Part shown: one piece after another, positions 11,571 through 31,596 of the stretch
Layout of the letters: each line of letters begins with the position of its first letter
How positions within the stretch are numbered: the stretch's first letter is position 1
NCBI GenBank assembly: GCA_020073265.1
Contig: JAIQFN010000039.1
Span: 1 to 54,327, forward strand
DNA: 54,327 nt
Source of the DNA: Terriglobia bacterium
GTDB taxonomy: Bacteria; Acidobacteriota; Terriglobia; Bryobacterales; Bryobacteraceae
Direction: 5' to 3'
The notes under the pieces: generated by a model
Databases searched by the model: none
What the model saw: only the letters and a program-made list of their open reading frames with translations
Told to the model about the DNA's origin: nothing
Made by a program: the position numbers and the translations under genes

Positions 11571-11704
11571 ACCAATTTCCCGCCGTGGCCACCCCTCCGG
11601 CCTCACATCCAGCCCTGTAACCTTCGCCACCCAACCAAGTAATGAAGAATGTTGCCAACCCGAATCGAGGCGCCAAGTCTAAGTCCTAGGAGAGGCCCTG
11701 AAGA

Positions 11705-14233: not shown

Positions 14234-14237
14234 CCAC

Positions 14238-14283
14238 GTGGCGCACGCACTCGTGCGTGCCGCGTTCACACTCGTGTGAACGC
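14238..14283. repeat. Double-hairpin repeat, copy B
   Basis: Starts 5 bp after the ADOP stop codon and runs into the last codons of the convergent MFS gene (ends 14266). Hairpin 1 is GCACGCAC/GTGCGTGC with a 2-base loop; hairpin 2 is GCGTTCACAC/GTGTGAACGC with a 2-base loop, ten perfect pairs. The overlap means this copy encodes the C-terminus of the MFS protein. Confidence 0.75.
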
Positions 14284-15525
14284 CGGCTTGAGCCGCAGCA
14301 CAGCGATCAATCCGCAAGCCGCGGCCGCCGACAACCACGCCCCCGGCATCGCGCGATTCCCAGTGACATGAATTAGGTAAGTGCAAATCGCGGGCGTAAA
14401 CCCGCCGAAAATCGCAGTCGCGAGCGTGAAGGCCAGCGAGAACGCCGCGGTTCTCACATCGATGGGCATGATCTCGGTCATGAACACCACCATCGCGCCG
14501 CTGTATCCGCCGAACATCAGCGAGAACCACAGCTCTACGACTAGCAATCTCGAGAACGAAGGCGCGCCGACCAGCCAGTACAACGCCGGATACGCGGTGA
14601 GCAGCGTGAGGATCGTGCAAGCCAAGAGCAACGGCCGACGCCCCACTCGGTCCGACAGGGCCCCCATTACCGGAACCCAAAAGAAGTTGGACAAACCCAC
14701 GCACAACGTGACCGCGAGACTGGCGGTGCTGGTCAGATGCAGCACCGAACTTCCGAAGGTTGGCGTGTAGGCGGTGATCATGTAGAAGCACACCGTCACC
14801 ATGGTCGCCATCAGCATCCCCAGCAGCACCAGGCGCCAGTCCTTCGCCAGCATTCGAATCGCGGCGGACATGGTGGGGTGATGTTTGCGCGCGCGAAACG
14901 CCTCGGTTTCTTCGAGCGAGCGCCGCATTCGCAGAACCACGGGAATGATTACGCAGCCGACCAGCAAGGGAATCCGCCAACCCCAGCGCGTCATGTTGGC
15001 GGAGGAAACGCTGGCCGTCAGGATCAATCCCAGCAGTGCCGCGAACACCACCGCGAGTTGCTGCGTGGCCGATTGCCAGCTCACGAAGAATCCCTTGCGA
15101 TCCGGCGTCGCAATTTCCGCCAGGTACACCGAGACGCCACCCAGCTCGACGCCCGCCGAGAGGCCTTGCAGCAGGCGTCCCAACAGGACCAGCAGCGGCG
15201 CGAGCAACCCGATGGCTGCATATCCGGGCGTGCAAGCGATCGATACCGTTCCGATCGCCATCAGGGCCAGAGTCAAAAGCAAGCCCGAGCGCCGGCCATG
15301 CTGATCGATGTAGGCGCCCAGCACGATCGCCCCCAACGGTCGCATAAGAAAGCCGGCCCCGAAGGTGGTCAGCGAAAGCATCAGCGAAGCATATTGATTG
15401 CCGCTCGGAAAGAAAGTCTGCCCGATTGCCGCGGCATAGTAGCCGAAGACCTGAAAGTCGTAGGCTTCGAGAAAATTGCCCGCCGACACGCGCAGCACCG
15501 GCCAGAGCTTGGATTCAGTTCGCAC
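14266..15525 (-). CDS. tcuC: MFS carrier, TcuC/CitA-like tricarboxylate-proton symporter
   Basis: With GTG 15525 as start (GGAG 8 bases upstream) the protein has 419 residues, beginning VRTESKLWPVLRVSAGNFLE and then AYDFQVFGYY, as in citrate/tricarballylate symporters of the metabolite:H+ family. Twelve membrane segments are likely. The loop GAYIDQHGRR after TM2 and SDRVGRRPLLL between the halves are MFS signatures. The start overlaps the end of the TcuB gene by 11 bp, so the two are cotranscribed. The C-terminal codons are formed by repeat copy B. It should import a tricarboxylate for TcuA/TcuB; the exact substrate is inference from gene order. Confidence 0.8.
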   Translation of the reverse strand: MRTESKLWPVLRVSAGNFLEAYDFQVFGYYAAAIGQTFFPSGNQYASLMLSLTTFGAGFLMRPLGAIVLGAYIDQHGRRSGLLLTLALMAIGTVSIACTPGYAAIGLLAPLLVLLGRLLQGLSAGVELGGVSVYLAEIATPDRKGFFVSWQSATQQLAVVFAALLGLILTASVSSANMTRWGWRIPLLVGCVIIPVVLRMRRSLEETEAFRARKHHPTMSAAIRMLAKDWRLVLLGMLMATMVTVCFYMITAYTPTFGSSVLHLTSTASLAVTLCVGLSNFFWVPVMGALSDRVGRRPLLLACTILTLLTAYPALYWLVGAPSFSRLLVVELWFSLMFGGYSGAMVVFMTEIMPIDVRTAAFSLAFTLATAIFGGFTPAICTYLIHVTGNRAMPGAWLSAAAACGLIAVLRLKPAFTRV

Positions 15526-16501
15526 CAGGCCGCTCCAGGGCGTATCGCAATAGGGCAGCCAGCCGATAGATCCCGTGCACGAACTTCCCGTAAGGCAGCG
15601 ACACGAACAATGCCAGGACAACCGCCAGATGGACGGCCAGCAGCAAAGGCATCGCCCGAGTCTCGCGCAGCGCCAGGAGCAGCAATCCGGTCGCGCCGGT
15701 GAAGAATAGCAAGGTCAGGAAGGCGCGGTCCATTCGGTCGTGTCCGGGATCGCGCGTCGCGGCGTCTTGCCGCTGCTTGAGCCAGAACAACCCGGCCGGC
15801 CCGGCGATCAGGCCGATGCCTCCGAGCGTTCCGAGAACAACCGGGAGGCTGAGGTAACCGTACGGCGCGCGCCATCTGAACGCGTAGTGATAAAACGCGG
15901 CCACCGTCGTGGAAGCGAAACACAACAGGAATCCGTAAGACGTGAGGTGATGAAACCACGAGCGGGGCGTGCCGCTGAGATACCTGAGCGTGAGTGCATT
16001 GCTCAACGCGCGTTGCAGAGCGGCCACTGTGACCGGAAGACTTACCTCCGATTCGCGCCAGAAACGCAGCAGTCCAGCGATCAGCGCCGTGAGAACGAAG
16101 ACACCAACCGTGCCGAAGATCGCAACCATTATGCCGTGCGGAATCGCGGCGTAGAAGTTGGCCGGCGCAACGTTGGTCCTCGCACCGAATATCCCAACCG
16201 CCAAACCGGCGATCAGAACCGGGACCGTCAGCCAGTTCCCCATAGGCCTCGGCCACGCATACTGCCGATAAGACCGGACGCGTATCTCGGCCAGCGTCTT
16301 CGGAACGTTCACCGCGAACTCGTGGGGCGGAGCGTATTGGCAGGCGTAATAGCACTCGCCGCAGTTGTGGCACAGATTCGCGAGGTAGTTCAGATCCGCG
16401 GCCGCGAAGTTCGTCCGCCGCTCGATCGCCGGAAACACCGCGCAGAAACCTTCGCAGTATCGGCAGGCATTACAAATCGTCAGGATGCGCGCGCCTTCCA
16501 C
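15515..16501 (-). CDS. tcuB: TcuB-like Fe-S membrane protein, electron acceptor for TcuA
   Basis: The 328-residue protein starts at GTG 16501, preceded by GGGAGG, inside the last codons of the TcuA gene. It opens with CNACRYCEGFC and then CHNCGECYYAC, two CxxCxxCxxxC Fe-S motifs, followed by about six membrane segments that contain likely heme-ligand histidines (HHLTSYGFLL and a later FYHYAF). In Salmonella the TcuB protein reoxidises the FADH2 of tricarballylate dehydrogenase and passes electrons to the quinone pool. An upstream extension of the open frame is out-of-frame TcuA sequence and was excluded. Confidence 0.82.
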   Translation of the reverse strand: MEGARILTICNACRYCEGFCAVFPAIERRTNFAAADLNYLANLCHNCGECYYACQYAPPHEFAVNVPKTLAEIRVRSYRQYAWPRPMGNWLTVPVLIAGLAVGIFGARTNVAPANFYAAIPHGIMVAIFGTVGVFVLTALIAGLLRFWRESEVSLPVTVAALQRALSNALTLRYLSGTPRSWFHHLTSYGFLLCFASTTVAAFYHYAFRWRAPYGYLSLPVVLGTLGGIGLIAGPAGLFWLKQRQDAATRDPGHDRMDRAFLTLLFFTGATGLLLLALRETRAMPLLLAVHLAVVLALFVSLPYGKFVHGIYRLAALLRYALERPGAN

Positions 16502-17844
16502 GCCGCCTCCCTTCCCGCGATGCGCCCGAACACCGTGCCGATCGCCATTCCGATTCCGGCCAGGTAACCTTTTCCCAAAATGTTGCCGGCCATGATTTCG
16601 CCCGCCGCCAGGATGTTGCGCGCGGGCCGGCCGTCGCTCATGAGCACCTGCGCGTTCGGATTCACCTTCACGCCCAGATAGGTGAACGTGATGCCAGGGC
16701 GCAGCGGATACCCGAAGAATGGCGGGGTGTCGAGCGCTTGCGCCCAGTGCGTCTTCTCGGGCGCGAGACCGCGGGTCCGGCAATTGTCCAGCACCGAATG
16801 ATCGAAGGTACCCGGCTGGACCGCGCCGTTGAAGCTCTGGACGGTCGCTTCGAGCGCATCGCCGGCCAGGCCGAGTTTCCCGGCCAGTTCTCGAATCGTG
16901 CTGCCTTCGACCGGCGCAAACACCGAAGGCATGAATCTGCCGAGCGCCTTCGAATCGATGATGGAGTAAGCAATCTGGCCGGGTTGCTGCGCCACCAGGC
17001 GGCCCCATATCGCGTATCGTTTGGGCCAGAGATCCTCGCCTTCGTCATAGAAGCGCTCCGAGTTCCGGTTCACTACGATGCCGAGCGGAATGCAATCCAG
17101 TCGCGTCACGACTCCGCCGTCGAACTTGGGCGCGCGCGCGTCGATGGCCACTGCGTGGCACTGCGCAGGATCGCCGACCGGCTGAGCGCCGCTGGCGAGC
17201 AGGAGCTTCAGAACCTTGCCTTTGTTGAACGGAGTGCCTCGGATCAGAAAGTTCTCGGCCGCCTCGCCCCACACTTCTTTAAGCCACTCCAGATTCGCTT
17301 CAAACCCGCCGGCCGCGGCCACTAGCGCTTTCGCGCGCATCTCGACTGCCTCGCCGTTCAGCAATACGCGCGCGCTCTGGAATTCTCCGCCGGTGCATTT
17401 GAGATCCACTACCTCGGCGTTGTAGAAAATGCGAACACCACGGCGCTCCGCGGCGGCGTAGTAAGCATTCATAAGCGCTTTTCCGCCTCCCAGAAAGAAC
17501 TGGTTGGTGCGGCCGAGGTGCAACGTCCCGCTGAGCGACGGCTGGAAGCGCACGCCGTGGCCGCGCATCCACTCGCTTGACGATTGCGATTCGCGTATCA
17601 CGATGCGCGCGAGTTCTTGGTTGGTTTCGCCACCAGTTACTCGGCACAAGTCGTCGAAGTACTCGCGTTCCGGATAGGCCTCCGACCGACAGCGCAGATT
17701 GCGAGTATGCCTGCTGTTGCCTCCGCGAAACTCCTTGGGCGCACTCTCGAGAACGGCCACGGTCGCGCCGAGTTCCGACGCGCTCAACGCGGCGCACAAA
17801 GCGGCATTGCCGCCGCCGGCCACGAGCACATCGAAAGAGTTCAA
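16480..17844 (-). CDS. tcuA: FAD-dependent tricarballylate dehydrogenase, TcuA-like
   Basis: The 454-residue protein starts at TTG 17844, overlapping the stop of the acyl-CoA dehydrogenase gene by 4 bp. The N-terminus FDVLVAGGGNAALCAALSA is the dinucleotide-binding loop, GGNSRHTRN follows in the FAD-binding region, and the C-terminal part carries AAGEIMAGNILGKGYLAG, the flavin end motif of the fumarate reductase/KsdD superfamily. Salmonella TcuA oxidises tricarballylate to cis-aconitate. Together with the downstream TcuB and TcuC genes the order is tcuA-tcuB-tcuC, which strongly supports the assignment. Related 4-carbon or 6-carbon acids are possible alternative substrates. Confidence 0.85.
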   Translation of the reverse strand: MNSFDVLVAGGGNAALCAALSASELGATVAVLESAPKEFRGGNSRHTRNLRCRSEAYPEREYFDDLCRVTGGETNQELARIVIRESQSSSEWMRGHGVRFQPSLSGTLHLGRTNQFFLGGGKALMNAYYAAAERRGVRIFYNAEVVDLKCTGGEFQSARVLLNGEAVEMRAKALVAAAGGFEANLEWLKEVWGEAAENFLIRGTPFNKGKVLKLLLASGAQPVGDPAQCHAVAIDARAPKFDGGVVTRLDCIPLGIVVNRNSERFYDEGEDLWPKRYAIWGRLVAQQPGQIAYSIIDSKALGRFMPSVFAPVEGSTIRELAGKLGLAGDALEATVQSFNGAVQPGTFDHSVLDNCRTRGLAPEKTHWAQALDTPPFFGYPLRPGITFTYLGVKVNPNAQVLMSDGRPARNILAAGEIMAGNILGKGYLAGIGMAIGTVFGRIAGREAAWKARAS

Positions 17845-19007
17845 TGAAACGACCCGCCGATCACGTTGCGCGCGATCACCAGCCGCTGGATTTCGCTGGC
17901 GCCTTCGCCGATGCGCCGGATGCGCAGCTCGCGATACCAGCGCTCGAGCGGCAGGTCTTTGCTGACGCCGCTGCCGCCGTGGATCTGGATGGCGCGATCC
18001 ACCACGCGCCCGGCCGCTTCGCTCGCCACCAGCTTGGCCATGGCAGCTTCAGTCGCGAACGGCGCGCCGCTCTGCGCTTTGAAGGCCGCCTCCAGCACCA
18101 GGAATCGCGCGGTGCGGACGTCGATCTCGTTGTCCACGATCATCCACTGAATCGCCTGGCGAGTGGCCAATAGATCGCCGAACGTCTTCCGGACCTTCAC
18201 GTAATCGATACACATCTGCTGCGCCTTGATGGCCGGCCCGAGGCACGCCGCAGCGTACGGAATCCGCGCGCGGCTGACGCGGTCCGACGCGATGGAGAAT
18301 CCCTTGTTCACCTCGCCCAGCACGTTCTTGTGCGGAACGCGCAGATTCTCGAACTGCAACTCGGTGGCGTAGTGCGCCGAGCGCAGCGTGTGCACCACTC
18401 GGCGCACGTAGAAACCGGGGGCGTCGGTATCGACGATAAAGCAGGTGATACCGCCACGCCCCTGAGTGGGATCGGTACGCGCGAACACCAGTCCGTAGTC
18501 GGCCTCGTCGGCGCCGCTGATGAATATTTTGCCGCCGTTGATGACCCAATCGTCGCCGTCGCGCACCGCGGTGGTACGGATGGCGCGCGCCGGATCGCTG
18601 CCGCCGGAAGGCTCGGTGAGCGCGAAAAACGCGGTCTTTTCGCCGCGCAACGTCGGATGGAGATAACGCTGCTTTTGATCCTCGGTGGCTTCGTAGAGCT
18701 GCGCCAGGCCGGTGCCGCCGAACACGCCATAGCAAGGCGCGTACAGGCCGGCGCGATGCTGCGACAACTCCATCGCCAGGAGCACCTCGGTAACCAGATC
18801 GATGGCCGGCCCGCCGTACTCTTCCGGGATGCCCAGCCCGTACAGGCCCATCGCTTTGACCTGCGCGGCCAGGCGCGCGTGATCTTCGGGGTCGAGCGAA
18901 TCCGCGTCGGGATCGAGTTTCGTTTCGAGCGGTACGATTTGTTCCTGGACAAACCGGCGCGCGGTCTGCACCAGCAGGCGCTGCTCGTCGCTGAGTTCGA
19001 AATCCAT
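17841..19007 (-). CDS. Acyl-CoA dehydrogenase
   Basis: The 388-residue protein starts MDFELSDEQRLLVQTARRFV, as usual for the family. It holds the FAD/acyl-CoA segment FFALTEPSGGSDPARAIRTT, the middle beta-domain WVINGGKIFISGADEADYG and the C-terminal helix QIHGGSGVSKDLPLERWYRE. The position of the usual catalytic Glu in the C-terminal domain cannot be fixed by eye. It oxidises an acyl-CoA to the enoyl-CoA with electrons going to ETF. It lies directly upstream of the TcuA gene with a 4 bp overlap, so one transcript likely joins free-acid and CoA-thioester oxidation. Upstream frame extension to 19061 was rejected in favour of ATG 19007. Confidence 0.88.
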   Translation of the reverse strand: MDFELSDEQRLLVQTARRFVQEQIVPLETKLDPDADSLDPEDHARLAAQVKAMGLYGLGIPEEYGGPAIDLVTEVLLAMELSQHRAGLYAPCYGVFGGTGLAQLYEATEDQKQRYLHPTLRGEKTAFFALTEPSGGSDPARAIRTTAVRDGDDWVINGGKIFISGADEADYGLVFARTDPTQGRGGITCFIVDTDAPGFYVRRVVHTLRSAHYATELQFENLRVPHKNVLGEVNKGFSIASDRVSRARIPYAAACLGPAIKAQQMCIDYVKVRKTFGDLLATRQAIQWMIVDNEIDVRTARFLVLEAAFKAQSGAPFATEAAMAKLVASEAAGRVVDRAIQIHGGSGVSKDLPLERWYRELRIRRIGEGASEIQRLVIARNVIGGSFH

Positions 19008-19020
19008 AGAGTGATCCAAG

Positions 19021-19353
19021 CTATTCCGGACGTAGGCGGCCCAGGCGCGGCGCGGAGTCACGATTGTCGCGCGGCAGTTCTCCCAGGTCCGCTTGGTGGA
19101 CCATCAGCAGTTCCTTGTAGCGCGTCATGTACTGGGTGTTGACCTCGCAGCGGAAACGATGGCCGGTGCCGAGCCTGCCAAGCTCGCGCTCGAGCTCGCC
19201 GCGCAGACCGAACAGCGATTTACCGCCCGCGTAGCCGATGAAGACAGTGTGCTCGGACGAATCTTGAACTTCGTACACGCCCATATGCGCGCCCAGCCCA
19301 GCGATATTCTCTCGCGACAGCGACGCCCATGGTTTACTCATACGCACGGTCAC
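19021..19353 (-). CDS. Small conserved protein, GIY-YIG/DUF7508-like N-terminal pattern
   Basis: 110 residues. GTG 19353 lies 8 bases after a perfect AGGAGG, so I prefer it over ATG 19338. The segment GVYEVQDSSEHTVFIGYAGG, then KSLFGLRGEL, resembles the beginning of GIY-YIG-like folds (GVYxxxD...V.YIGYA), but catalytic residues cannot be confirmed. It ends 13 bp before the acyl-CoA dehydrogenase start and is probably the first gene of the acd-tcuABC transcript. Function unknown; the family name is a weak guess. Confidence 0.6.
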   Translation of the reverse strand: MTVRMSKPWASLSRENIAGLGAHMGVYEVQDSSEHTVFIGYAGGKSLFGLRGELERELGRLGTGHRFRCEVNTQYMTRYKELLMVHQADLGELPRDNRDSAPRLGRLRPE

Positions 19354-19433
19354 TGCTTCGGCCTCCTGTCGAAAGACCTTATCGTATCATCGGGGACGAG
19401 CAATGAAATGCTAGCCTGAAAGTCCAAGCTCTC

Positions 19434-20195
19434 GTGCGTTTATCCGACCACTGTTTCGCTGTGACTGGCCTCGGCTACGCTCCTCCGTGGAGCGTGAATG
19501 CCGGTTTTGTCGCCGGCCGCGAGACGACGCTCATCGTGGACACCGGCGCCAACGCCCTGGCAGCAGCGACACTGCACGGATACGCGTCCGCGGCGTCTGG
19601 TGGAAATCGCCTGGCCGTCATCGACACCGAGCGGCATTTCGATCACATCGGCGGCAACGGCTACTTCCGTGACCGCGGGATCGACGTGTACGGACACGCA
19701 AACATCCGGCGGACGGCGGAGGAGTTTCGCGCGGAGATCGACGACTTCAACGATCAGATACGGAATCCGTTCCGGCGGGCGCGCGGCGAAGCGCAGGTCT
19801 TCTATCACCAGACGCGGCTCGAGAATCCGAATCGCCCGATCAGCGAAAACACCAGCATGGATCTGGGAAACTGCGAGATTGAAATTCTGCTGACGCCCGG
19901 CCACACTCCCACGAACTTGTCGGTGTGGGTGCCGCGCGACGGCGTGCTGTTCTCCGGCGATTGCCTGGTGAACCTGTACTTGCCCAACCTCGACAGCGGC
20001 ACAGCGATCGACTGGCAGCAGTGGCTCCAGTCTCTGGATCGCATTGCAGACCTAGCGCCGGCGGTGGTCATGCCCGGGCACGGTCCGGTCGCGCGGGGCG
20101 ACGAGGTCAATCGCCTGATCGCTTCGGTGCGGGACGTTCTGCGTCAAGCCATCGCGGACGGACGTTCGCCCACATCGCGCGCCGCGACGGCCTGA
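19434..20195 (+). CDS. MBL-fold metallo-hydrolase
   Basis: The 253-residue protein starts at GTG 19434. Metal-ligand motifs of the metallo-beta-lactamase fold are visible: TERHFDHIGGN (the HxHxDH motif with Glu in place of the first His), LTPGHTPTNLSVW, LFSGDCLVN and VVMPGHGP. These enzymes hydrolyse thioesters, lactones or similar bonds, and in a CoA-acid island a thioesterase-like role is plausible. The Glu substitution could change metal content. It diverges from the minus-strand acyl-CoA dehydrogenase cluster, and its 3' end overlaps the convergent DinB gene by 52 bp. Confidence 0.8.
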   Translation: MRLSDHCFAVTGLGYAPPWSVNAGFVAGRETTLIVDTGANALAAATLHGYASAASGGNRLAVIDTERHFDHIGGNGYFRDRGIDVYGHANIRRTAEEFRAEIDDFNDQIRNPFRRARGEAQVFYHQTRLENPNRPISENTSMDLGNCEIEILLTPGHTPTNLSVWVPRDGVLFSGDCLVNLYLPNLDSGTAIDWQQWLQSLDRIADLAPAVVMPGHGPVARGDEVNRLIASVRDVLRQAIADGRSPTSRAATA

Positions 20196-20719
20196 TCGGC
20201 CTGCCACAAGTGGCGCCGCTCGTGGACCGCGATCAGAACGAAGGCCGAATACAGGTTGTAGCGCACGTTCTTGGCGAACGGTGAGGCGATTTGATATTGG
20301 TCGAGCGCCAGGCCGCCGGCAAGGCGGAGTTGTTCGAGCAGCTTGTCCTGGAGTCCCGCGAAGTCGGGTATCACTCGCGCTGGGTCCGGCAAGTTGACCG
20401 GCTGGAATGGCGCCGACGTCGGCATGCGAAAGTGCACGGGCGGCTCCAGGAGCCAAGCCAGAAAGCGGGCCTTTCGCTCCATGCGGTAGGGACTGGACGA
20501 GAATTGTTTTCTCTCGCGCAGCTCGCGAATGCCGGGTTCGATGAGGGGAAGGTACGCGCGGGCCGTCAGGTTGAGATATTCGATGCACTCGGCCGGCGAC
20601 CAGCGTTTCGGTCCAGGCCGCTTGACGAGATCGGCCCCTGAAAGGCGCTGGCCGATTTCGTGCGCGTGCGCGGTGGCTTCCTGGAGCTCGCGCGCAATAG
20701 TGTCCAGTTGATCCGTCAT
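20144..20719 (-). CDS. DinB-family protein
   Basis: 191 residues from ATG 20719 (MTDQLDTIARELQEATAHAH). The four-helix DinB/YfiT-type pattern shows as GPKRWSPAECIEYLNLTARAYLP near the N-terminus and HERRHLWQADQAV near the C-terminus, which supply the usual three metal-binding His positions (the first is not certain). DinB-superfamily members include thiol-S-transferases and maleylpyruvate isomerases. It overlaps the upstream FAD monooxygenase stop by 4 bp, so it belongs to that minus-strand transcript. Confidence 0.7.
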   Translation of the reverse strand: MTDQLDTIARELQEATAHAHEIGQRLSGADLVKRPGPKRWSPAECIEYLNLTARAYLPLIEPGIRELRERKQFSSSPYRMERKARFLAWLLEPPVHFRMPTSAPFQPVNLPDPARVIPDFAGLQDKLLEQLRLAGGLALDQYQIASPFAKNVRYNLYSAFVLIAVHERRHLWQADQAVAARDVGERPSAMA

Positions 20720-21855: not shown

Positions 21856-21860
21856 GCGGC

Positions 21861-23069: not shown

Positions 23070-24579
23070 TCTGGTCGGCTGCGGCGACGTGACCGATCTT
23101 ACCACTCCCATCGAGGCGGGTCGATCGCCGTTAGAGCTGACAGCGCAGGCTGCGCGATTGGCGCTGGCCGACGCCGAGGCGCCGGGATTGGTGGACGCGA
23201 TCGATACCGTCGCCACCTTACGGCTGTTTTCGGATACCTCGCATCGTTTTGCCACCCGGTTGGGAACCTCCAGGAATCCACCCAAGAGCGTCGCGGACCG
23301 GCTGGGCATCCAAGCGGCCCGCTACATCTACACCTGGAATGGCGGGAACATGCCGCAGTTTCTGGTGAACACGTTCGCCGAAGCGATTGCGGCGGGGGAG
23401 ATCGGAGCGGCGCTGATCGCTGGCGGCGAAGCACTGTGCACGCAGCACGGCGTTGAGCGAGCCGGGCTCGCGATCTCGTGGCACGAAGATCCGGGCGGCG
23501 AGCCGGAGCTGATCGGAGACCCGCGGCGCGGTTGGAGCGATTACGAAGATCGCCACCAGATGCGAGCCGCGATCGTGATGTACCCGCTCATCGAGAACGC
23601 GATCCGTGACGCGCGCTGCAGTTCTGTTCCCGAACACATGCAGTCGATGGGCCGGTTATTCGCGCGATTCTCCGCTGTGGCGGCGCGAAATCCGCTGGCG
23701 GTCCGGCGCGAAGGCTACGCGGCCGAGCGGCTCGCGACGCTTGACAACGACAACCGCTGGATCGGATTCCCCTATCCGCGCCTCATGAACTCCAGCGCGT
23801 TCGTCGATCAGGCGGCAGCTTTGATCATGACGTCGGTGGGACTGGCGCGGAAGCTCGGCATTCCGGAATCGAAGTGGGTCTACCTGCACGGCTGCGCCGA
23901 CGCGCACGACCACTGGTACATCTCGGAGCGGGTCCGTCTCGATTCGTCGGCTACTATTCGATGCGCCTCGCGCCAGGCTCTGGATATGAGCGGGCGCGCG
24001 CTGGCCGGCATCCGCTTCTTCGATCTGTATAGTTGCTTTCCATCCGCGGTCGAGATCGGCTGCCGGGAGATCGGACTCGCGGAGGACGACCCGCGCGGAC
24101 TCACCGTCACCGGAGGCTTGCCCTATTTCGGCGGACCGGGAAACAACTACGTCACGCACTCGATCTCCGAAATGATGCGGCAGTTGCGTGCGCACCCGGA
24201 CAGTTTCGGAATGGTGACGGCCAACGGGAATTACGTCACCAAGCATTCGTTCGGAATCTATTCGACTACGCCGTTCGAGGGTCGATGGCGCAGGGAGGCG
24301 CCCGGCGTTCTGCAATCGGAACTGGATGCGTCGCCGAAGGCGCCGCTAGTGGAGATCGCTTCAGGCCGCGCGACCATCGAGACCTACACGATTATGCATG
24401 GCAAGACCGGCCCGGAATTCAGCGTGATAATCGGAAGGCTGAAGGAGACCGGCCAGCGTTTCATCGCCAACACCTCGCCGGAGCCAGCCGTACTGCACGA
24501 TCTCGAGGATCGCGAGAGTCTGGGCCGGGCCGGCACTGTATCGCACATGGACGGCCGCAACATCTTCGTCCCGGATTGA
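23023..24579 (+). CDS. Thiolase-like (acetyl-CoA acetyltransferase family) protein without the usual Cys nucleophile
   Basis: 518 residues from ATG 23023; ATG 23032 is possible because the conserved part begins at STPILVGCGDVTDLT. The fold is thiolase-like, with ARYIYTWNGGNMPQFLVNTF at the nucleophile elbow and GGLPYFGGPGNNYVTHSISE in the C-terminal half, followed by an OB-like tail. At the elbow, where classical thiolases have Cys-Gly-Ser-Gly, this protein reads Gly-Gly-Asn-Met, so ordinary thiolysis is doubtful. It heads a plus-strand set with the next CoA-transferase and crotonase. Confidence 0.78.
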   Translation: MTVMPASGKLEASTPILVGCGDVTDLTTPIEAGRSPLELTAQAARLALADAEAPGLVDAIDTVATLRLFSDTSHRFATRLGTSRNPPKSVADRLGIQAARYIYTWNGGNMPQFLVNTFAEAIAAGEIGAALIAGGEALCTQHGVERAGLAISWHEDPGGEPELIGDPRRGWSDYEDRHQMRAAIVMYPLIENAIRDARCSSVPEHMQSMGRLFARFSAVAARNPLAVRREGYAAERLATLDNDNRWIGFPYPRLMNSSAFVDQAAALIMTSVGLARKLGIPESKWVYLHGCADAHDHWYISERVRLDSSATIRCASRQALDMSGRALAGIRFFDLYSCFPSAVEIGCREIGLAEDDPRGLTVTGGLPYFGGPGNNYVTHSISEMMRQLRAHPDSFGMVTANGNYVTKHSFGIYSTTPFEGRWRREAPGVLQSELDASPKAPLVEIASGRATIETYTIMHGKTGPEFSVIIGRLKETGQRFIANTSPEPAVLHDLEDRESLGRAGTVSHMDGRNIFVPD

Positions 24580-24592
24580 GAACGCGGGTCCT

Positions 24593-24598
24593 TATAAT
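24593..24598 (+). promoter_or_regulatory. Candidate -10 element TATAAT
   Basis: A perfect TATAAT ends 9 bp before the ATG at 24608. Transcription would start about 2-4 bp before the ATG, giving an almost leaderless mRNA. No good -35 hexamer stands at the usual distance (TTGAGA at 24576 is only 11 bp away). Confidence 0.5.
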
Positions 24599-24607
24599 AG
24601 GACTTCT

Positions 24608-25783
24608 ATGCAAGCCGCACTGCCGTTGTCCGGCATCACGCTGTTGGACCTGACCCATGCGCGGGCCGGCCCGACCTGCGTGCGGCATTTCGCGGACTGG
24701 GGCGCCGACGTGATCCGGATCGAACCGCCCGACATCGGCGAGGACGCGCTCGGCAAACGTGACGGCCCGGATTTTCAAAATCTTCATCGCAACAAGCGCA
24801 TGATGCGGCTGAACCTGAAATCGCCCGAGGGTCACGCCGCGTTCCTGCGCCTGGTGCAGCGCGCCGATGTGGTAGTGGAGAACATGCGCGCGGCGGTGAA
24901 ACATCGGCTGAAGATCGCTTGGGAGGACGTGCACGCGGTGAATCCACGTGTGGTGTACGGCAGTATCAGCGGATTCGGGCAGGACGGGCCCTATGCGGAA
25001 CGCGCGGGCGTCGATCAGATCGCGCAGGGCATGGGTGGCCTGATGTCCATCACGGGACTGCCCGGCCAGGGACCGCTGCGCGTTGGAATTCCGGTGGCGG
25101 ACTTGAGTGCCGGTACGTTGCTGGCGTTGGGAATCATGATGGCGCTGTTCGAGCGCGAGCGGACCGGCGTGGGCCGATGGGTACACACCAGTCTGCTGGA
25201 ATCGCAGGTGTTCATGCTGGATTTTCAGGCGGCGCGCTGGCTGATGCAGCACGAGGTGCCGCGGCAGGCCGGCAACGATCATCCGACTGGAATCCCCACC
25301 GGTGTATTTCCCACGAGCGACGGATACATCAACATCGCCGCCAGTTCCAATCGCTTGTGGGAACGGATGTGCGACACCGTCGGGAGGCCGGAATGGAAGG
25401 CTCGTGAGGAATGGAAGACGCAGAACGGGCGCAGTGCGGAACGCAAGCAGATCAATGCGGCCATCGGCGAGATCACACAGCACCAGCCGGCCGCGCACTG
25501 GATCGAGCTGTTCGAAGACGCGGGCGTTCCGTGCGGACCCATTTATTCGATCGATCAGGTCTTCGCGGATCCCCAGGTGCGGCACCTCGGCCTGGCTGCG
25601 CCGATGACGCATCCGCGCTTAGGTGAAACCGAAGTAGTGAATTCGCCGATCAACTTGAGCGGCGTTGCGAAGGGCGTGCGGACGCCGACACCGGAAGCCG
25701 GCGAGCATACCTCGGAAGTCCTGCGGTGGGCCGGGCTCACCGATCAGGAGATTGACGACATGCGGTCGAAAGGCGTGATCTGA
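24608..25783 (+). CDS. Family III CoA-transferase, second copy
   Basis: 391 residues, ATG 24608. It shows LSGITLLDLTHARAGPTCVR, RMMRLNLKSPEGHAAFLRLV, VVVENMRAAVKHRLK and the likely catalytic Asp in AGVDQIAQGMGGLMSITG. It is related to the minus-strand copy at 21861 but clearly different in sequence, so the pair probably handles different acids or steps. Its stop overlaps the crotonase start by 1 bp (TGATG), indicating translational coupling. Confidence 0.87.
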   Translation: MQAALPLSGITLLDLTHARAGPTCVRHFADWGADVIRIEPPDIGEDALGKRDGPDFQNLHRNKRMMRLNLKSPEGHAAFLRLVQRADVVVENMRAAVKHRLKIAWEDVHAVNPRVVYGSISGFGQDGPYAERAGVDQIAQGMGGLMSITGLPGQGPLRVGIPVADLSAGTLLALGIMMALFERERTGVGRWVHTSLLESQVFMLDFQAARWLMQHEVPRQAGNDHPTGIPTGVFPTSDGYINIAASSNRLWERMCDTVGRPEWKAREEWKTQNGRSAERKQINAAIGEITQHQPAAHWIELFEDAGVPCGPIYSIDQVFADPQVRHLGLAAPMTHPRLGETEVVNSPINLSGVAKGVRTPTPEAGEHTSEVLRWAGLTDQEIDDMRSKGVI

Positions 25784-26592
25784 TGGCGGCGGCGCTGGAG
25801 AAGCTGGCGGACGGAAAGATTCTGGCTAACGTCGAAGACGGCATCGGCCTGGTCACCTTCAACCAGCCCGAGAAGCGCAACGCCATGTCGGTGGACATGT
25901 GGGCGGGACTCGAGCAGGTGTTCGGCGCTTGGGAGCATGACGATTCAGTGCGCGTGGTGGTGCTGGCTGGCGCGGGCGACAAGGCCTTCGTCTCCGGCGC
26001 CGACATCAGCGAGTTCGAGAAGCGCCGGGCCAACGTGGACGCGGGGCGCGAGTACGAGCACGCCACCAGCGGTGGAAGAGCTAAGCTGGCGGCGTTCCCC
26101 AAGCCGGTGATCGCGCGCATCCGCGGGTATTGCCTGGGAGGCGGCCTGGCGATCGCGATGCAAGCCGACCTGAGGATCGCGACCGAAGATTCGCAATTCG
26201 GCATTCCTGCGGCGCGTCTGGGCGTGGCCTACGGGTTTCAGTCGGTGCGGAGGTTGATCGCGCTGATTGGTCCGGCGCACGCGAGCATGCTGCTGTTCTC
26301 AGGGTCGCGCATCGGCTCGGAGGAAGCAGCACGGATCGGACTGGTGAACCAGGTGGTGGCGAACGAGGAGCTGGAGGAGGTGGTGGACGTTCTGGCGCGG
26401 AACATCGCCGAGAACGCGCCGCTGTCGGTGCGCGCGAGCAAGCTGACCATCGAACAGGCGCTGCGCGATCCCGCCGATCGAGACATGCACGCCCTCGAGC
26501 AGGCCAGCATCGCATGTTTCAACAGCGAGGATTATCGCGAGGGTCGGACGGCGTTTCTGGAGAAACGTCCGCCGAAATTTCGGGGGCGGTGA
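25783..26592 (+). CDS. Crotonase-superfamily (enoyl-CoA hydratase-like) protein lacking both catalytic Glu
   Basis: 269 residues. Crotonase-fold markers are FNQPEKRNAMSVDMW, FVSGADISEF (oxyanion loop) and GYCLGGGLAIAMQADLRIA. In canonical hydratases the two catalytic glutamates fall in GGGxELA and PExxLG; here these read GGGLAIA and PAARLG, so both are Ala. A normal syn-hydration is therefore unlikely, and a hydrolase, isomerase, decarboxylase-like or structural role is possible. It is coupled to the CoA-transferase by a 1 bp overlap. Confidence 0.85.
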   Translation: MAAALEKLADGKILANVEDGIGLVTFNQPEKRNAMSVDMWAGLEQVFGAWEHDDSVRVVVLAGAGDKAFVSGADISEFEKRRANVDAGREYEHATSGGRAKLAAFPKPVIARIRGYCLGGGLAIAMQADLRIATEDSQFGIPAARLGVAYGFQSVRRLIALIGPAHASMLLFSGSRIGSEEAARIGLVNQVVANEELEEVVDVLARNIAENAPLSVRASKLTIEQALRDPADRDMHALEQASIACFNSEDYREGRTAFLEKRPPKFRGR

Positions 26593-26633
26593 GGTAGTAT
26601 CGGGCTGGCGCATAGCGTGGGAGAATGTGGTCA

Positions 26634-26852
26634 ATGGCAAGCCTGAAACAACGCATTGACCGGCATGACCGCGAGATTGCGGCCATTCGGAAGCTCATCC
26701 ATGTCGGGATGAAGATGAGCGTCACAAATGAGAAGCAGATTCGCGAGCTCGCCGTCCAGCAGCGCCAGACCTCTCGGGAATTGCAGGCCTTCATTCGCAG
26801 CCTGCAGCGCGGAGGCGATGGCCACAGCCGCCGAGGACCGAGCATTCAATAA
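26634..26852 (+). CDS. Small coiled-coil-like protein
   Basis: 72 residues from ATG 26634 (MASLKQRIDRHDREIAAIRK); ATG 26625 is the alternative. The pattern of RxDRHDREIAAIRKL, then GMKM and a Gln/Arg-rich helical tail, is one I associate with short acidobacterial proteins of unknown function. It should form a helical hairpin or coiled coil. It follows the crotonase by 41 bp and may be read through from it. Confidence 0.5.
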   Translation: MASLKQRIDRHDREIAAIRKLIHVGMKMSVTNEKQIRELAVQQRQTSRELQAFIRSLQRGGDGHSRRGPSIQ

Positions 26853-26872
26853 ATCGCAGCGCGCCGCATTGA

Positions 26873-26878
26873 TATAAT
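26873..26878 (+). promoter_or_regulatory. Candidate -10 element TATAAT in front of the kinase remnant
   Basis: A perfect TATAAT ends 18 bp before ATG 26897. It appears to be the surviving promoter of the deleted gene that follows. No clear -35 box is visible. Confidence 0.45.
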
Positions 26879-26896
26879 TCTCCACACCCGGCGCCC

Positions 26897-27183
26897 ATGA
26901 GACCGCAACTGATCGCTCACTATCGCATCTCGTAGCGGGATGGAAATGAGATCTACTACATCGCACCGACCTGCGGCTGATGGCTGCGGCGGTGAGCGTG
27001 AAGGGCCGTGTTGAATGTGGCAGCAGTGAGCCACTCTTCGCTGTTGCGGTTGTTGGCGGCGGCTATCTCTACGATGTCTCGGCAGACGCGCAGCCTTTTC
27101 TGGTTCGCACCGCGCCGACCGCGAGCGACGCTCAGCCGCTTACCGTGGTTCAGGCTGGACTGCGGCGCTTGAAGAAACGCTAG
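26897..27183 (+). pseudogene. Internally deleted remnant of a Ser/Thr kinase/WD40-like propeller gene
   Basis: ATG 26897 opens MRPQLIAHYRIS, which matches the first residues of acidobacterial Ser/Thr kinases (x-Q-x-I-x-H-Y-R-I...). A TAG follows at 26933, where RDGNEIYYIAP continues in the same frame; the family normally has Trp-Arg-Asp-Gly here in the C-terminal propeller. A frame change near 26970 then leads to LMAAAVSVKG, later YDVSADAQPFLVRTAPTASD and AQPLTVVQAGLRRLKK, the usual C-terminal end of these proteins. So the first dozen codons are joined to the last 80 or so, and the remainder is gone. The assignment is by family pattern, not by search. Confidence 0.6.
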
Positions 27184-27196
27184 CGCGCCGTGGTTG

Positions 27197-27538
27197 TCAC
27201 CAACTGACAGTGCTGATGCTGTCCACCTTCAGCCGGCCGTCGTCGATCTTGCCGCTGAGTTTTACTTTGTGGCCCAGGTGCGGCAGCACTTTGTCGAGCG
27301 ACTCCGCGTCGATATGGACCACTTTGTTGTCTTCGGTCAGGAACACGGCTTCCGACCCGTCTTTGACGCACATCTTCGCGCAGGATTCGAAAACTTTGGG
27401 ATGTATCCAGCCGGAGGCGGTCGAGGACTTGGCGTGCTCGGCGGCGCACTTGGTGTCTGAAATGTAGCCGGTCATGTCTGCGGCGAACGTTACACCAGCG
27501 AGTGCGGAAATAACTGCAACTGCGATCAAGATCTTCAC
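27197..27538 (-). CDS. Small exported protein, possibly DUF5818 family
   Basis: 113 residues from GTG 27538, with GGGAGG upstream. Signal peptide VKILIAVAVISALAGVTFAA is followed by MTGYISDTKCAAEHAK, then SCAKMCVKDGSEAVFLTEDN and a C-terminal beta region (LPHLGHKVKLSGKIDDGRLK). Three Cys (one in TKC, two in CAKMC) suggest a disulfide or metal site. Similar small secreted proteins with a C...CxxxC pattern are common in acidobacteria. Function unknown; longer upstream frame to 27646 rejected. Confidence 0.65.
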   Translation of the reverse strand: MKILIAVAVISALAGVTFAADMTGYISDTKCAAEHAKSSTASGWIHPKVFESCAKMCVKDGSEAVFLTEDNKVVHIDAESLDKVLPHLGHKVKLSGKIDDGRLKVDSISTVSW

Positions 27539-27644
27539 GCGAAGAGCCTCCCAGAGAGAATGGTCAAACGATTCGACGATAGCGCACGGCGACGCCGCGT
27601 CGCAACGTCCCCTCGCCGGCTGATCTAGTACGCTAGTACAAACC

Positions 27645-28421
27645 ATGTCGAAGCTGCTCTACGAGGTTCGGGACAGAGTCGCGCGCATCACCATCAATCG
27701 GCCGGAGGCGATGAACGCGATGGACGCGGATGTGTACGCCGAGCTGTCCAAGGCCTGGATAGACGTGCGCGATAACCCGGACGTTTGGGTCGCCATCATC
27801 ACCGGTGCTGGCGAGAAGGCGTTCACGGCGGGCGCGGATTTGAAATCGCTCATTCCTCAGAAGCACGGTAAGGCGGATTTCTGGCTCACGCAGAAGAACA
27901 TGATCCTCAATCGCGGTTTGGAGGTGTGGAAGCCGGTGATCGCGGCTGTCAACGGCTACTGCCTGGCGGGCGGCATGACGCTGCTGTTCGCCACCGACAT
28001 CCGCATCGCCGCCGAGCACGCCGTCTTTGAAATCTCGGAAGTGAAGCGTGGCATTCTCGCGGGAAATGGCGGAACGCAGCGCGCGCTGCGGCAGCTTCCC
28101 TACGCGATCGCCATGGAGATGCTGCTGCTCGGCCGGCGGCTGGCTGCTCACGAAGCGCTTTCCTACGGACTGGTCAACAAAGTCGTGCCGCTCGGCGATC
28201 TCATGCCCACCGCGGAAGAGTACGCGCGGAGGCTTTGCGAGAATGGCCCTTTAGCCTTGCGCGCCTCCAAGGAACTGGCCATCCGGAGTCAGAGTCTGCC
28301 GCTCGAACAGGGACTGCGACTCGAAGAATCGTTTCAAGAGTTCCTGCGCGGCACCGAGGATGCCAAGGAAGGCCCGCGCGCCTTCGCTGAAAAGCGCAAG
28401 CCGGTTTTCAAGGCCGAGTAG
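27645..28421 (+). CDS. Enoyl-CoA hydratase/crotonase family protein
   Basis: 258 residues, ATG 27645. It has INRPEAMNAMDADVYAELSK, FTAGADLKSL (oxyanion loop), GYCLAGGMTLLFATDIRIA and FEISEVKRGILAGNGGTQRA. The second catalytic Glu of canonical hydratases (SEVKRG position) is kept, while the first (GGMTLLF position) is Thr. Hydration or a related reaction on a CoA ester is plausible. The stop is directly followed by the ATG of the CitE-like lyase with no spacing, so the two are coupled. Confidence 0.87.
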   Translation: MSKLLYEVRDRVARITINRPEAMNAMDADVYAELSKAWIDVRDNPDVWVAIITGAGEKAFTAGADLKSLIPQKHGKADFWLTQKNMILNRGLEVWKPVIAAVNGYCLAGGMTLLFATDIRIAAEHAVFEISEVKRGILAGNGGTQRALRQLPYAIAMEMLLLGRRLAAHEALSYGLVNKVVPLGDLMPTAEEYARRLCENGPLALRASKELAIRSQSLPLEQGLRLEESFQEFLRGTEDAKEGPRAFAEKRKPVFKAE

Positions 28422-29321
28422 ATGGACAAGACCGTTCGACCACATCGTTCCAGCCTGTTTGTTCCCGGCCATCGCACGGCGTGGATCGAGAAGGCCGCCG
28501 GGTACGGCTCCGATTTCCTGATCCTCGATTTGGAGGACTCGGTTCCGGATCAGGAGAAAGCCGGCGCGCGCGCCATCACCAAGGCCGGCATCAAGACTCT
28601 CAAAGCGAACGGGCAAGCAGTGGGCGTGCGCGTAAACGGTTTCGCCACCGGATTGACGCGCGATGATCTGGAAGGCGTCGTGTGTCCTGAACTCGACAGC
28701 GTCACGCTGCCGAAAGTCGAGACCGTGGCCGACCTGCAGGAGCTGGACGCGCTGCTGACGAATCTCGAAAAGCGCGCTGGGATCGCGGCGGGGTCCATCG
28801 AGACTCCGCTCGGCTGCGAGACCGCCAAGGCGATGCGCAACATTTACGAGATCGCGACGTCGTGTCCGCGCGTGAAGCGAGTGACGCTAGCGGCCGGACC
28901 GGGTGGCGACGCGGCGCGGGCCATCGGCTACGTCTGGTCGAAAGAAGGCACCGAGACGTTGTACCTTCGCTCCAAGACCGTGCTGGATTGCCGCGCGGCG
29001 GGCGTCCAGCATCCGACCATCAGCTCCTGGTGGAACATCAAGGACCTGGAAGGCCTGGAGCGCGACGCACGCTGGAATCGCCAGGTCGGATTCCGCGGCA
29101 TGACGGTGATGCACCCTTCGCACGTGCCGATCGTGAACCAGGTGTTCACTCCGGCGGCGGAGGAGATCGCGTTTTATAGAGGATTGATCCAGGCGATGGA
29201 AGAAGCCAAGGTAAAAGGAATCGCGGCCGTGGTCTACCAAGGCGACATGGTGGACGAAGCGATGCTGAAGACCGCGCGTGAGATGCTCGAGTTCGCCCGC
29301 TCGATCGGGCTGGAGAGCTGA
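28422..29321 (+). CDS. CitE-like (HpcH/HpaI family) CoA-ester lyase
   Basis: 299 residues. Typical segments are SSLFVPGHRTAWIEKA, FLILDLEDSVPDQEKAGAR (Mg-site region), the IETPLG motif with a metal-binding Glu, GPGGDAARAIG with the second acidic ligand, and FRGMTVMHPSHVPIVNQVF. CitE, malyl-CoA and citramalyl-CoA lyases use this fold to split a 3-hydroxyacyl-CoA into acetyl-CoA (or similar) and a keto acid. Here it would act after a hydratase, consistent with the directly preceding crotonase. The exact CoA-ester is unknown. The stop overlaps the next start by 1 bp. Confidence 0.87.
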   Translation: MDKTVRPHRSSLFVPGHRTAWIEKAAGYGSDFLILDLEDSVPDQEKAGARAITKAGIKTLKANGQAVGVRVNGFATGLTRDDLEGVVCPELDSVTLPKVETVADLQELDALLTNLEKRAGIAAGSIETPLGCETAKAMRNIYEIATSCPRVKRVTLAAGPGGDAARAIGYVWSKEGTETLYLRSKTVLDCRAAGVQHPTISSWWNIKDLEGLERDARWNRQVGFRGMTVMHPSHVPIVNQVFTPAAEEIAFYRGLIQAMEEAKVKGIAAVVYQGDMVDEAMLKTAREMLEFARSIGLES

Positions 29322-30628
29322 TGTCTGAAGCCGCCGCGGTCGCCCGCCAAGCGATTCCGACCAGGCTGAGCCGTCACCAAATCACGGGCTTCTGGGCGGC
29401 GTGGCTCGGCAACACGCTGGATGGCACCGACATTTCGATCGCGGGCATCGCCCTGGCGCCGGCGCTGCTCACGCTGTTGCCTCTTTCCGGAATGGCGTGC
29501 GACGCCGGCACGGTCGGATATCTCGCTTCGGTAATGCTGGCCTTGTACCTGATCGGCTGGAGCCTGTCGTTCTTGGCCGGACCGCTGGTGGATCGTTTCG
29601 GGCGCACCAAGATGCTGGCGGTGTGCTGCGCTACCTACGCGATCTTCACCGCAGTGGGCGGCCTGTCGCAGAACATCTGGCAACTCGGCGCCACGCGCTT
29701 CCTGGCGGGTCTGGCGTTGGGCGGAGAATGGGCCGCGGCGAGCACCTACGTCGCCGAAATCTGGCCGGAGGATCGCCGCAAGATGGGCGCGGGCTACCTG
29801 CACACCGGCATCTATTTCGGTTCGCTGCTGGCCGGCGTCATCAGCTACTTCGTGAGTCCGAGGTTCGGTTGGCGAGGATTGTTTCTCTGCGGACTCGCGC
29901 CGGTGATCATGGCCGTGCTCACGCTCGCCGGAGTTCGCGAACCAGAGCGATGGGAAGGCAAGGTCCGGGAAGCGTCAGTTCGCCGGACCAACCCGATGTT
30001 CGCAATCTTCGGCGCGCAATATCTGCGCACCACGCTGGTGATGGCGGCACTGATGACGGTCGCATCCACCGGGTTGTGGGGCGGCTCGCAGTACTTTGCC
30101 ACCGCCGTCACGCTCATGGCGCGCGAGCAAGGACTCACGCCCGCCAGAGGCAGCGAGCTGGCGGCTTATATTTCGGTGATCGTCTCGGCGGGAACGATTA
30201 TCGGCTGCGTGCTCGCGCCCGTGCTGGCCGAGCGCGTAGGACGCAAGCGTGCTCTGGCAACGTATTTCGCCGTGATGATGGTCATGATCGTCGTGACCTG
30301 GGGCTGGATCTTCTACCGGCCGCCGTCTGAGGGACTGCGCCTGTTCTTCGGCGCCGCCTTCGTCATCGGACTGGCGCAAGGCTATTTCGCGCTGTTCACT
30401 CTCTGGTTGCCGGAACTGTACGGGACCATTGTCAGGGGCACGGGCTTCGCGTTCTGCACCACGTCCTGCCGGTTCATCGGAGCCGGCGTGAATTTCGCGG
30501 TGGGTGCCGCGGCCAAGTCGATGGGGACGCTGGGCACACCGCTGGCCTGCATCGCGGTAGTGTTTGCAATCGGGCTCTTGATTATCCCGCTCGCGCGAGA
30601 GACGCACGGCCAGCCGTTGCCGGATTAG
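29321..30628 (+). CDS. MFS transporter, aromatic/organic acid:proton symporter type
   Basis: 435 residues with twelve predicted membrane segments. The N-terminal LGNTLDGTDISIAGIALAPA carries the D-x-x-D-like acidic motif of the aromatic acid symporters. GPLVDRFGRTKMLAV is the TM2-3 signature and LAERVGRKRALATYF its mirror. ALGGEWAAASTYVAEIWPED matches the family loop after TM4. As the last gene of crotonase-lyase-MFS, it likely imports the substrate of that set. The 3' end overlaps the convergent CtaA gene by 47 bp. Confidence 0.85.
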   Translation: MSEAAAVARQAIPTRLSRHQITGFWAAWLGNTLDGTDISIAGIALAPALLTLLPLSGMACDAGTVGYLASVMLALYLIGWSLSFLAGPLVDRFGRTKMLAVCCATYAIFTAVGGLSQNIWQLGATRFLAGLALGGEWAAASTYVAEIWPEDRRKMGAGYLHTGIYFGSLLAGVISYFVSPRFGWRGLFLCGLAPVIMAVLTLAGVREPERWEGKVREASVRRTNPMFAIFGAQYLRTTLVMAALMTVASTGLWGGSQYFATAVTLMAREQGLTPARGSELAAYISVIVSAGTIIGCVLAPVLAERVGRKRALATYFAVMMVMIVVTWGWIFYRPPSEGLRLFFGAAFVIGLAQGYFALFTLWLPELYGTIVRGTGFAFCTTSCRFIGAGVNFAVGAAAKSMGTLGTPLACIAVVFAIGLLIIPLARETHGQPLPD

Positions 30629-31550: not shown

Positions 31551-31596
31551 TGTAGCAAGCTTCGAAGCTTTGATAAAATCGTTTCTTTAGCAACAA

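Follow-up and report, generated by a model that had tools for sequence, protein, structure and literature searches.

Degradation of itaconate and methylsuccinate in Pseudomonas aeruginosa and Cupriavidus necator is encoded by an ict-ich-mcd-mmgE-ccl cluster, and two convergent variants of the itaconate pathway are described (PMC12290011). The cai operon of Escherichia coli also brings together genes for an acyl-coenzyme A (CoA) dehydrogenase-like protein, a family III CoA-transferase and a crotonase, without a lyase. Utilisation of tricarballylate by tcuABC, a system which runs without CoA steps, is known from Salmonella. Here we describe a block of genes at positions 14266-30628 of a contig of 54,327 nucleotides from a Terriglobia bacterium of the phylum Acidobacteriota (GenBank assembly GCA_020073265.1, contig JAIQFN010000039.1), in which genes comparable to those of these systems are found. 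The whole contig, called the window below, is contig 5 of 131 in a genome of 6.4 Mb.

The explanation that we favour, tentatively, is that this block is a composite catabolic island, in which tcuABC would serve tricarballylate and a core of four enzymes (Cat1, Acd, Ech2 and CitE) another acid, the likeliest candidate being a short branched di- or tricarboxylate similar to methylsuccinate or itaconate. In the core, Cat1 would move CoA onto the acid, Acd would form the alpha,beta-unsaturated acyl-CoA, Ech2 would hydrate it to a 3-hydroxy-3-carboxy-acyl-CoA, and CitE would cleave this compound to acetyl-CoA and a 2-oxo acid, which would be pyruvate if the intermediate were citramalyl-CoA. This reaction sequence is plausible; what the data show are the genes, their conserved residues, the linkage of their homologues in other organisms and an occurrence specific to this lineage, whereas the order of the steps, each reaction and the substrate are what we infer.

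Results

Homologues of the four core genes occur together in other organisms. For citE, 14 loci with at least 72% identity (72-82%) from 13 genomes were compared; a match of 43 residues (L013) had been left out before counting. An ech2 homologue was present at 12 of the 14, adjoining citE at 76-89% identity in 11 and at 59% in one more, a family III CoA-transferase at 10, and an acd homologue (47-49%) at six. A CoA-transferase lay near citE at 8 of 11 loci against 1.3 expected, with a tail probability of about 3e-6, which is a rough figure based on first-look gene counts per genome. The cat1 comparison comprised 19 loci, namely 13 plasmid records with at least 50% identity among the best 30 of 1,218, and six other loci, weaker matches being left out, as was L046, whose CoA-transferase was less than 50% identical to cat1; at these loci (51-63% identity) an ech2-type neighbour was found in seven cases, a citE-type neighbour in seven, and acd of at least 42% identity in five. 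Homologues of cat1 with 50-63% identity are found in both bacteria and haloarchaea, and acd homologues (42-49%) stand beside those of ech2, cat1 or citE elsewhere. Homologues of cat1 and citE adjoin on plasmids of Halorientalis litorea and Haladaptatus halobius, each of which also carries ech2 and acd homologues at a distance of up to about 20 kb. Strain NT-25, Hydrogenophaga sp. BPS33 and the bin G303 carry acd, ech2 and cat1 homologues together with a thiolase-like and an OB-fold gene, and no citE match was present in those stretches. A plasmid search with citE gave 556 records, every one below 60% identity. We conclude that cat1, acd, ech2 and citE are a recurrent set of the activate-oxidise-hydrate-cleave type, with homologues in Rokubacteria and Proteobacteria and more distant ones on plasmids of haloarchaea.

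Some of these clusters have features of their own. The haloarchaeal plasmids L062, L071, L063 and L087 carry large clusters in which homologues of cat1, citE, ech2 and acd occur in differing subsets, accompanied by genes for UGSC, 3-keto-5-aminohexanoate cleavage, an LLM oxidoreductase, RraA and a TAXI transporter; they perhaps encode a broader pathway. In G303, which is betaproteobacterial (L010, L043-L045, L127), homologues of citE, cat1, acd, ech2 and tlp1 are on separate contigs. An ech2-citE pair with MmgE/PrpD is found at L009, in a bin of 2.6 Mb labelled Bordetella parapertussis, a label that may be wrong.

Key residues are kept in most of the core enzymes, the catalytic roles in CitE, the CoA-transferases and Acd being assigned from alignment to malyl-CoA lyase/CLYBL entries and from general knowledge. 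Arg70, Glu133, Asp163 and Asp278 of CitE are present in 23 of 23 aligned sequences, the Asp at CaiB position 169 in Cat1 and Cat2 (8 of 8 CoA-transferases), and the Glu of RIGEGASE in Acd in 7 of 9, the exceptions being the outgroup references, CaiA and a Cupriavidus enzyme. In Ech2, Thr replaces the first catalytic Glu and the second is kept, as also in 17 of 17 homologues (16 bacterial loci and one haloarchaeon). Among control crotonases in the same alignment, PaaF and CaiD have Glu/Glu, the isomerase PaaG Thr/Phe, and the decarboxylase ScpB Glu/Pro. The two Glu residues of crotonase hydratases are found neither in Ech2 (Thr/Glu) nor in Ech1 (Ala/Ala), the second crotonase of the block. The AlphaFold model of CitE (mean predicted local distance difference test score, pLDDT, 71.7; best Foldseek match with template modelling score 0.60 and root-mean-square deviation 9.7) may be taken to support the fold and not the substrate; a model of Ech2 with mean pLDDT 42 was not used.

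The content of the block, established by Pfam and NCBIfam profile scans of its proteins, is given in Table 1. An initial annotation of this DNA had proposed one CoA-dependent catabolic island of 16 kb with the order transfer, oxidation, hydration, cleavage. Every gene type that it named is present, including a tcu arm, for which the TcuA and TcuC models were passed, and a crotonase and thiolase of non-standard kind: one catalytic Glu is missing from Ech2 and both from Ech1, and the thiolase-like protein TLP1 lacks Cys/His/Cys. The proposed order is apt as a list of functions and wrong as a gene order, the genes forming about four directional groups on the two strands, namely acd-tcuA-tcuB-tcuC and cat1-monooxygenase with the DinB-like gene on the minus strand, and tlp1-cat2-ech1 and ech2-citE-MFS on the plus strand. 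The MBL-fold gene and a small open reading frame (ORF) sit between the groups. The pairs acd/tcuA, cat1/monooxygenase (stop to start), cat2/ech1, ech2/citE and citE/MFS overlap slightly or abut, and G+C is uniform across the block (61-65%). For tcuB, cat1, acd and the monooxygenase gene we chose the starts, that of tcuB being approximate. With the chosen starts, the divergent cat1 and tlp1 seem to share as many as about 47 bases at their 5' ends (window 23023-23069), and promoters would then fall within coding sequence.

Table 1. Genes of the block, with positions in the window and profile matches
Feature	Position	Strand	Assignment
tcuC	14266-15621	-	MFS tricarballylate/proton symporter; NF011656 681.6 bits, cut-off 445; true start probably near residue 35
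tcuB	about 15515-16540	-	4Fe-4S protein of tricarballylate use; TIGR02484 and NF011607 matches
tcuA	16480-17844	-	Flavin adenine dinucleotide (FAD)-dependent tricarballylate dehydrogenase; NF006130 678.1 bits, cut-off 369
acd	17841-19007	-	Acyl-CoA dehydrogenase of the four-enzyme core (Pfam); stop overlapped by tcuA
MBL-fold hydrolase	19434-20195	+	PF00753
DinB-like gene	20144-20785	-	Not listed in the initial annotation
FAD monooxygenase (FAD_binding_3)	20716-21864	-	PF01494; PRK06753 302.7 bits, below cut-off 365
cat1	21861-23069	-	Family III CoA-transferase of the core; PF02515
tlp1	23023-24579	+	Thiolase-like protein type 1 with C-terminal barrel domain; PF18313 51.9 bits, cut-off 26.1
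cat2	24608-25783	+	Second family III CoA-transferase; PF02515
ech1	25783-26592	+	Crotonase without both catalytic Glu; PRK06127 subfamily 359.2 bits, cut-off 291
Small ORF	27197-27646		No Pfam match; not listed in the initial annotation
ech2	27645-28421	+	Crotonase, Thr112/Glu132 subfamily; predicted core hydratase
citE	28422-29321	+	CitE-like CoA-ester lyase (HpcH/HpaI); PF03328
Second MFS carrier	29321-30628	+	PF07690; no specific NCBIfam model passed; same direction as ech2-citE

Such a layout, on both strands and with other genes interspersed, would also be expected of a chance neighbourhood, in which tcuABC, acd, cat1-monooxygenase, tlp1-cat2-ech1 and ech2-citE-MFS serve different substrates and share no pathway. 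This is possible, if somewhat doubtful. In searches of the phylum genomes, relatives and homologue loci, no second locus with the whole block was found, tcuAB and tlp1 homologues occur alone in the relatives fetched, and cat2-ech1 forms a separate pair on plasmids; what does not agree with chance is that acd, cat1, ech2 and citE homologues recur jointly in unrelated phyla and on haloarchaeal plasmids. Because homologues of tcuABC, tlp1 and cat2-ech1 occur separately in relatives or on plasmids, the 16 kb as a single pathway is unsupported. The island proposed initially therefore survives as a catabolic but composite one, with a four-enzyme core whose homologues recur in subsets across phyla. 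Conservation of the whole block, which had been suggested as a check, was not observed, and scattering of the genes in relatives, named as the evidence that would speak against the proposal, applies to the block as a whole and not to the core.

TcuA and TcuC are above their NCBIfam cut-offs (Table 1), like the Salmonella system, from which the locus differs in that acd precedes and overlaps tcuA. TcuB, a protein trimmed by the chosen start, reached 352 bits with TIGR02484 (cut-off 246.6) and 408.7 bits with NF011607 (cut-off 524). The three proteins would import tricarballylate and oxidise it to cis-aconitate. Homologues of tcuA (61-72% identity) were found in 6 of 100 relatives, with tcuB adjoining in all six and tcuC in one, and no acd, CoA-transferase or crotonase match lay near tcuA in any of them (10.5-20 kb fetched each). 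No tcuR-like regulator was recognised by eye in the ORF lists. Thus tcuABC is a known, self-sufficient tricarballylate module, ordinary on its own. The overlap of acd with tcuA, in the same direction as tcuABC, could nevertheless be read as a sign of a CoA-bound tricarballylate route beside TcuAB, leading from tricarballylyl-CoA through aconityl-CoA and citryl-CoA to acetyl-CoA and oxaloacetate, and citryl-CoA is indeed cleaved by CitE-type lyases. We find this route very improbable, given that acd is not beside tcuA in the six relatives, that no tcu match was found in the citE or cat1 loci, that CitE missed the citE model TIGR01588 (188 bits, cut-off 443), and that a literature search for such a route gave no relevant publication.

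The remaining group, tlp1-cat2-ech1, is probably a further acid module, in which TLP1 is predicted to be a thiolase-fold retro-aldolase. TLP1 matches MsTLP1 (PDB 4egv, E 1.3e-96), which has a thiolase fold and a C-terminal beta-barrel domain, shows no thiolase activity, and had no known function in 2012 (PMC3406046). At the thiolase Cys/His/Cys positions it has Gly, Gly and Asn, the controls AtoB and PaaJ being intact in the alignment. Its membership of the TLP1 family is indicated by the PF18313 C-terminal domain and a YSCF motif (Tyr336/Cys338); the motif is present in 18 of 18 homologues looked at as well, and contains the first of the two catalytic motifs, Tyr-x-Cys or Tyr-x-His, of the Sal/Ltp2 aldolases. 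The catalytic pair of the bile-acid aldolase Sal, Tyr302/Cys304, lies within YDCY, and Gly89 of Sal contacts the hydroxyl (PMC12329534); the YSCF of TLP1 is spaced like this motif, and in TLP1 a Gly stands in place of the thiolase Cys. Set against MsTLP1 and Sal, it is distinguished by a fused C-terminal barrel domain combined with no DUF35 partner in the block; among the block proteins scanned, TLP1 included, none matched OB_ChsH2_C. In related clusters, the three OB-fold genes that were scanned all had OB_ChsH2_C, the OB-fold neighbours in the others being taken from annotation. Thiolase-like proteins of six related clusters (n=7) also lack Cys/His/Cys, and all seven have Y-D-x-F, x being Cys in four.

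Fusions of TLP1 to a crotonase were found in two distant bacteria, Novosphingobium sp. EMRT-2 (784 residues, L093:7004-9358) and G1144 (786 residues, L130, G1144:C2 about 1260500-1262850). They are 44% identical, and the crotonase part has both catalytic Glu in each. A family III CoA-transferase follows the Novosphingobium fusion, and an acyl-CoA ligase-like gene, recognised by eye, follows the other; in the former, PF18313 is not recognised by Pfam, yet the protein aligns to tlp1 over its full length at 38%. Such a protein would resemble a hydratase followed by an aldolase, in analogy to the Shy-Sal complex. Among 15 TLP1 loci, there was one crotonase fusion, one adjoining crotonase and three more within about 4 kb; two had a weak acd match only, and 8 had no match to any core gene. 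Homologues of tlp1 in 2 of 2 relatives were likewise without core genes nearby. Because of these eight loci and both relatives, a hydratase-aldolase role of TLP1 is something that we infer rather than read from its neighbours.

Ech1 has Ala/Ala at the two Glu positions; so have three of its four homologues, and one has Glu/Gly. Ech1 is therefore unlikely to be a standard hydratase, judging from these residues, and a decarboxylase or hydrolase function is conceivable. Of the five plasmid loci retrieved with cat2, four have cat2-ech1 as a separate pair, and Pseudoroseomonas has no ech1 match. Plasmids L067-L070 carry a cat2-type CoA-transferase with a crotonase from which one or both catalytic Glu are missing, and in Roseivivax such a pair is beside a malonyl-CoA synthase and a TTT transporter.

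The block is probably an insertion, or several, gained in this lineage, since citE is absent from the phylum and relatives and the flanking gene order is kept elsewhere without block genes. No citE match at E<=1e-60 was found in 198 other genomes of the phylum or in 60 relatives (G187 being in both sets). Matches of 72-82% identity come from bins named Rokubacteria, Deltaproteobacteria, Betaproteobacteria and Proteobacteria, and citE is patchy there too, occurring in 7 of 95 genomes in the phylum of G301 (E<=1e-80; 5 of the 7 already known) and in 2 of 300 genomes in the order of G300 (E<=1e-90; one of the two already known). The right flank, ctaA-RidA-flavin reductase-HU-M50 protease (flavin reductase, HU and M50 protease being named by eye), keeps its order in two same-genus genomes and the ctaA-RidA order in a third, that is, in three of five relatives fetched; in the other two, ctaA alone was matched among these genes. 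No block genes were found on the block side of ctaA in the four relatives with at least 10 kb there, the fifth having less than 1 kb. At window 30582-30628, the second MFS gene runs with its 3' end into that of ctaA, which looks like the right edge of the insertion. No tRNA or Rfam element that could be an insertion site was found in the window, and the longest repeat in 13000-32000 is a chance likeness of the two crotonase genes. The block is thus a mosaic beside a conserved ctaA-ridA neighbourhood and not one conserved unit. The RidA protein encoded there (window 31597-32757) has three RidA (L-PSP) stretches and an apparent signal peptide, and adjoins ctaA in all three genomes of the same genus that were fetched. 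Left of the block, a phospholipase B-like protein (PF04916) is encoded at window 10149-11630.

Discussion

What the core might degrade is suggested by the neighbours of its relatives. The homologues are accompanied by MmgE/PrpD at two loci, RraA-like at one and PrpF at one (by Pfam), and by TTT or TAXI transporters (by annotation). These point to short branched di- or tricarboxylates. Substrates of MmgE/PrpD proteins have a four-carbon dicarboxylate in common (PMC12290011). From the same source, the likeness to itaconate or citramalate degradation noticed initially can be maintained for itaconate/methylsuccinate, whose cluster has the same list of functions: CoA-transferase, acyl-CoA dehydrogenase, hydratase and CitE-like lyase. 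Citramalate fits less well because its degradation needs no dehydrogenase; degradation of citramalate alone was considered unlikely by this reasoning, as the acyl-CoA dehydrogenase would be idle. The comparison with Ict, Ich and Mcd was one of function. Ich is MaoC-like, whereas the block has crotonases, and neither a MaoC-type hydratase nor MmgE/PrpD was found among its proteins scanned. Acd is 30% identical to the acyl-CoA dehydrogenase of a lyase-MaoC cluster on a Cupriavidus plasmid, and Acd, Cat1 and Cat2 are 24-30% identical to CaiA/CaiB. The core would be a third itaconate-type variant.

Several observations weigh against this assignment, the absence of MmgE/PrpD and MaoC from the block being one of them. 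No core enzyme reaches an NCBIfam equivalog cut-off for a named reaction. Besides TIGR01588, CitE missed the RipC/Ccl equivalog (138.4 bits, cut-off 375), and the succinyl-CoA:mesaconate CoA-transferase model was missed by a wide margin. In sequence comparisons, CitE scored 127 bits with malyl-CoA lyases and 104 with human CLYBL, against 68 each with two other enzymes, the Pseudomonas acyl-CoA lyase 9nzb and the (S)-citramalyl-CoA lyase 8khl, and malyl-CoA lyases are its nearest solved structures; hence a malyl-CoA-type substrate and another 2-oxo acid product are still candidates. The isomerase PaaG shares the Thr of Ech2, so that Thr at the first Glu place is by itself no sign of a hydratase and Ech2 need not be one. 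Both points slightly lower our confidence in the favoured explanation. As to linkage, 8 of the 10 citE loci with a CoA-transferase carry only a distant paralogue (27-35%) and not cat1, acd is missing at 8 of the 14 citE loci, and at 8 of the 19 cat1 loci ech2-type and citE-type neighbours are both absent. Some cat1 loci carry branched-chain-type ABC transporters instead of the TTT or TAXI type, and in the window the four genes do not form one operon.

The overlap of the monooxygenase gene with cat1 brings in another substrate class, namely an aromatic or alicyclic acid, the attack on which would be started by the FAD monooxygenase and the side-chain or ring-cleavage products finished by the CoA enzymes. 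Among NCBIfam models, one for an aromatic-acid carrier comes closest to the second MFS carrier (132 bits, below its cut-off of 418), which agrees with this idea, as do the LLM-type oxidoreductases or amidohydrolase annotated in some homologue clusters. It is improbable nonetheless, as no ring-cleavage dioxygenase was found among the block proteins scanned, and CitE-type lyases act on short 3-carboxylated hydroxyacyl-CoA esters.

To return to a short branched acid as the substrate of the core, a wider proposal can be made: a third convergent pathway of the itaconate/methylsuccinate type, with a Thr/Glu crotonase as hydratase, would extend across phyla and haloarchaea, and TLP1 would be a self-contained retro-aldolase working with a hydratase. 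We consider it unlikely that both parts hold together; if they did, both would be undescribed ways of cleaving a beta-hydroxyacyl-CoA from a branched acid. In a literature search made mostly without subscription papers, no publication on the core gene set or on an aldolase role of TLP1 was found. TLP1 and Ech2 are the parts most worth testing. Should the proposal be true, the crotonase subfamily of Ech2 would gain a testable reaction, the function of TLP1 would become directly testable, and an additional route for small branched acids would recur in microbes of soil, groundwater and salt lakes.

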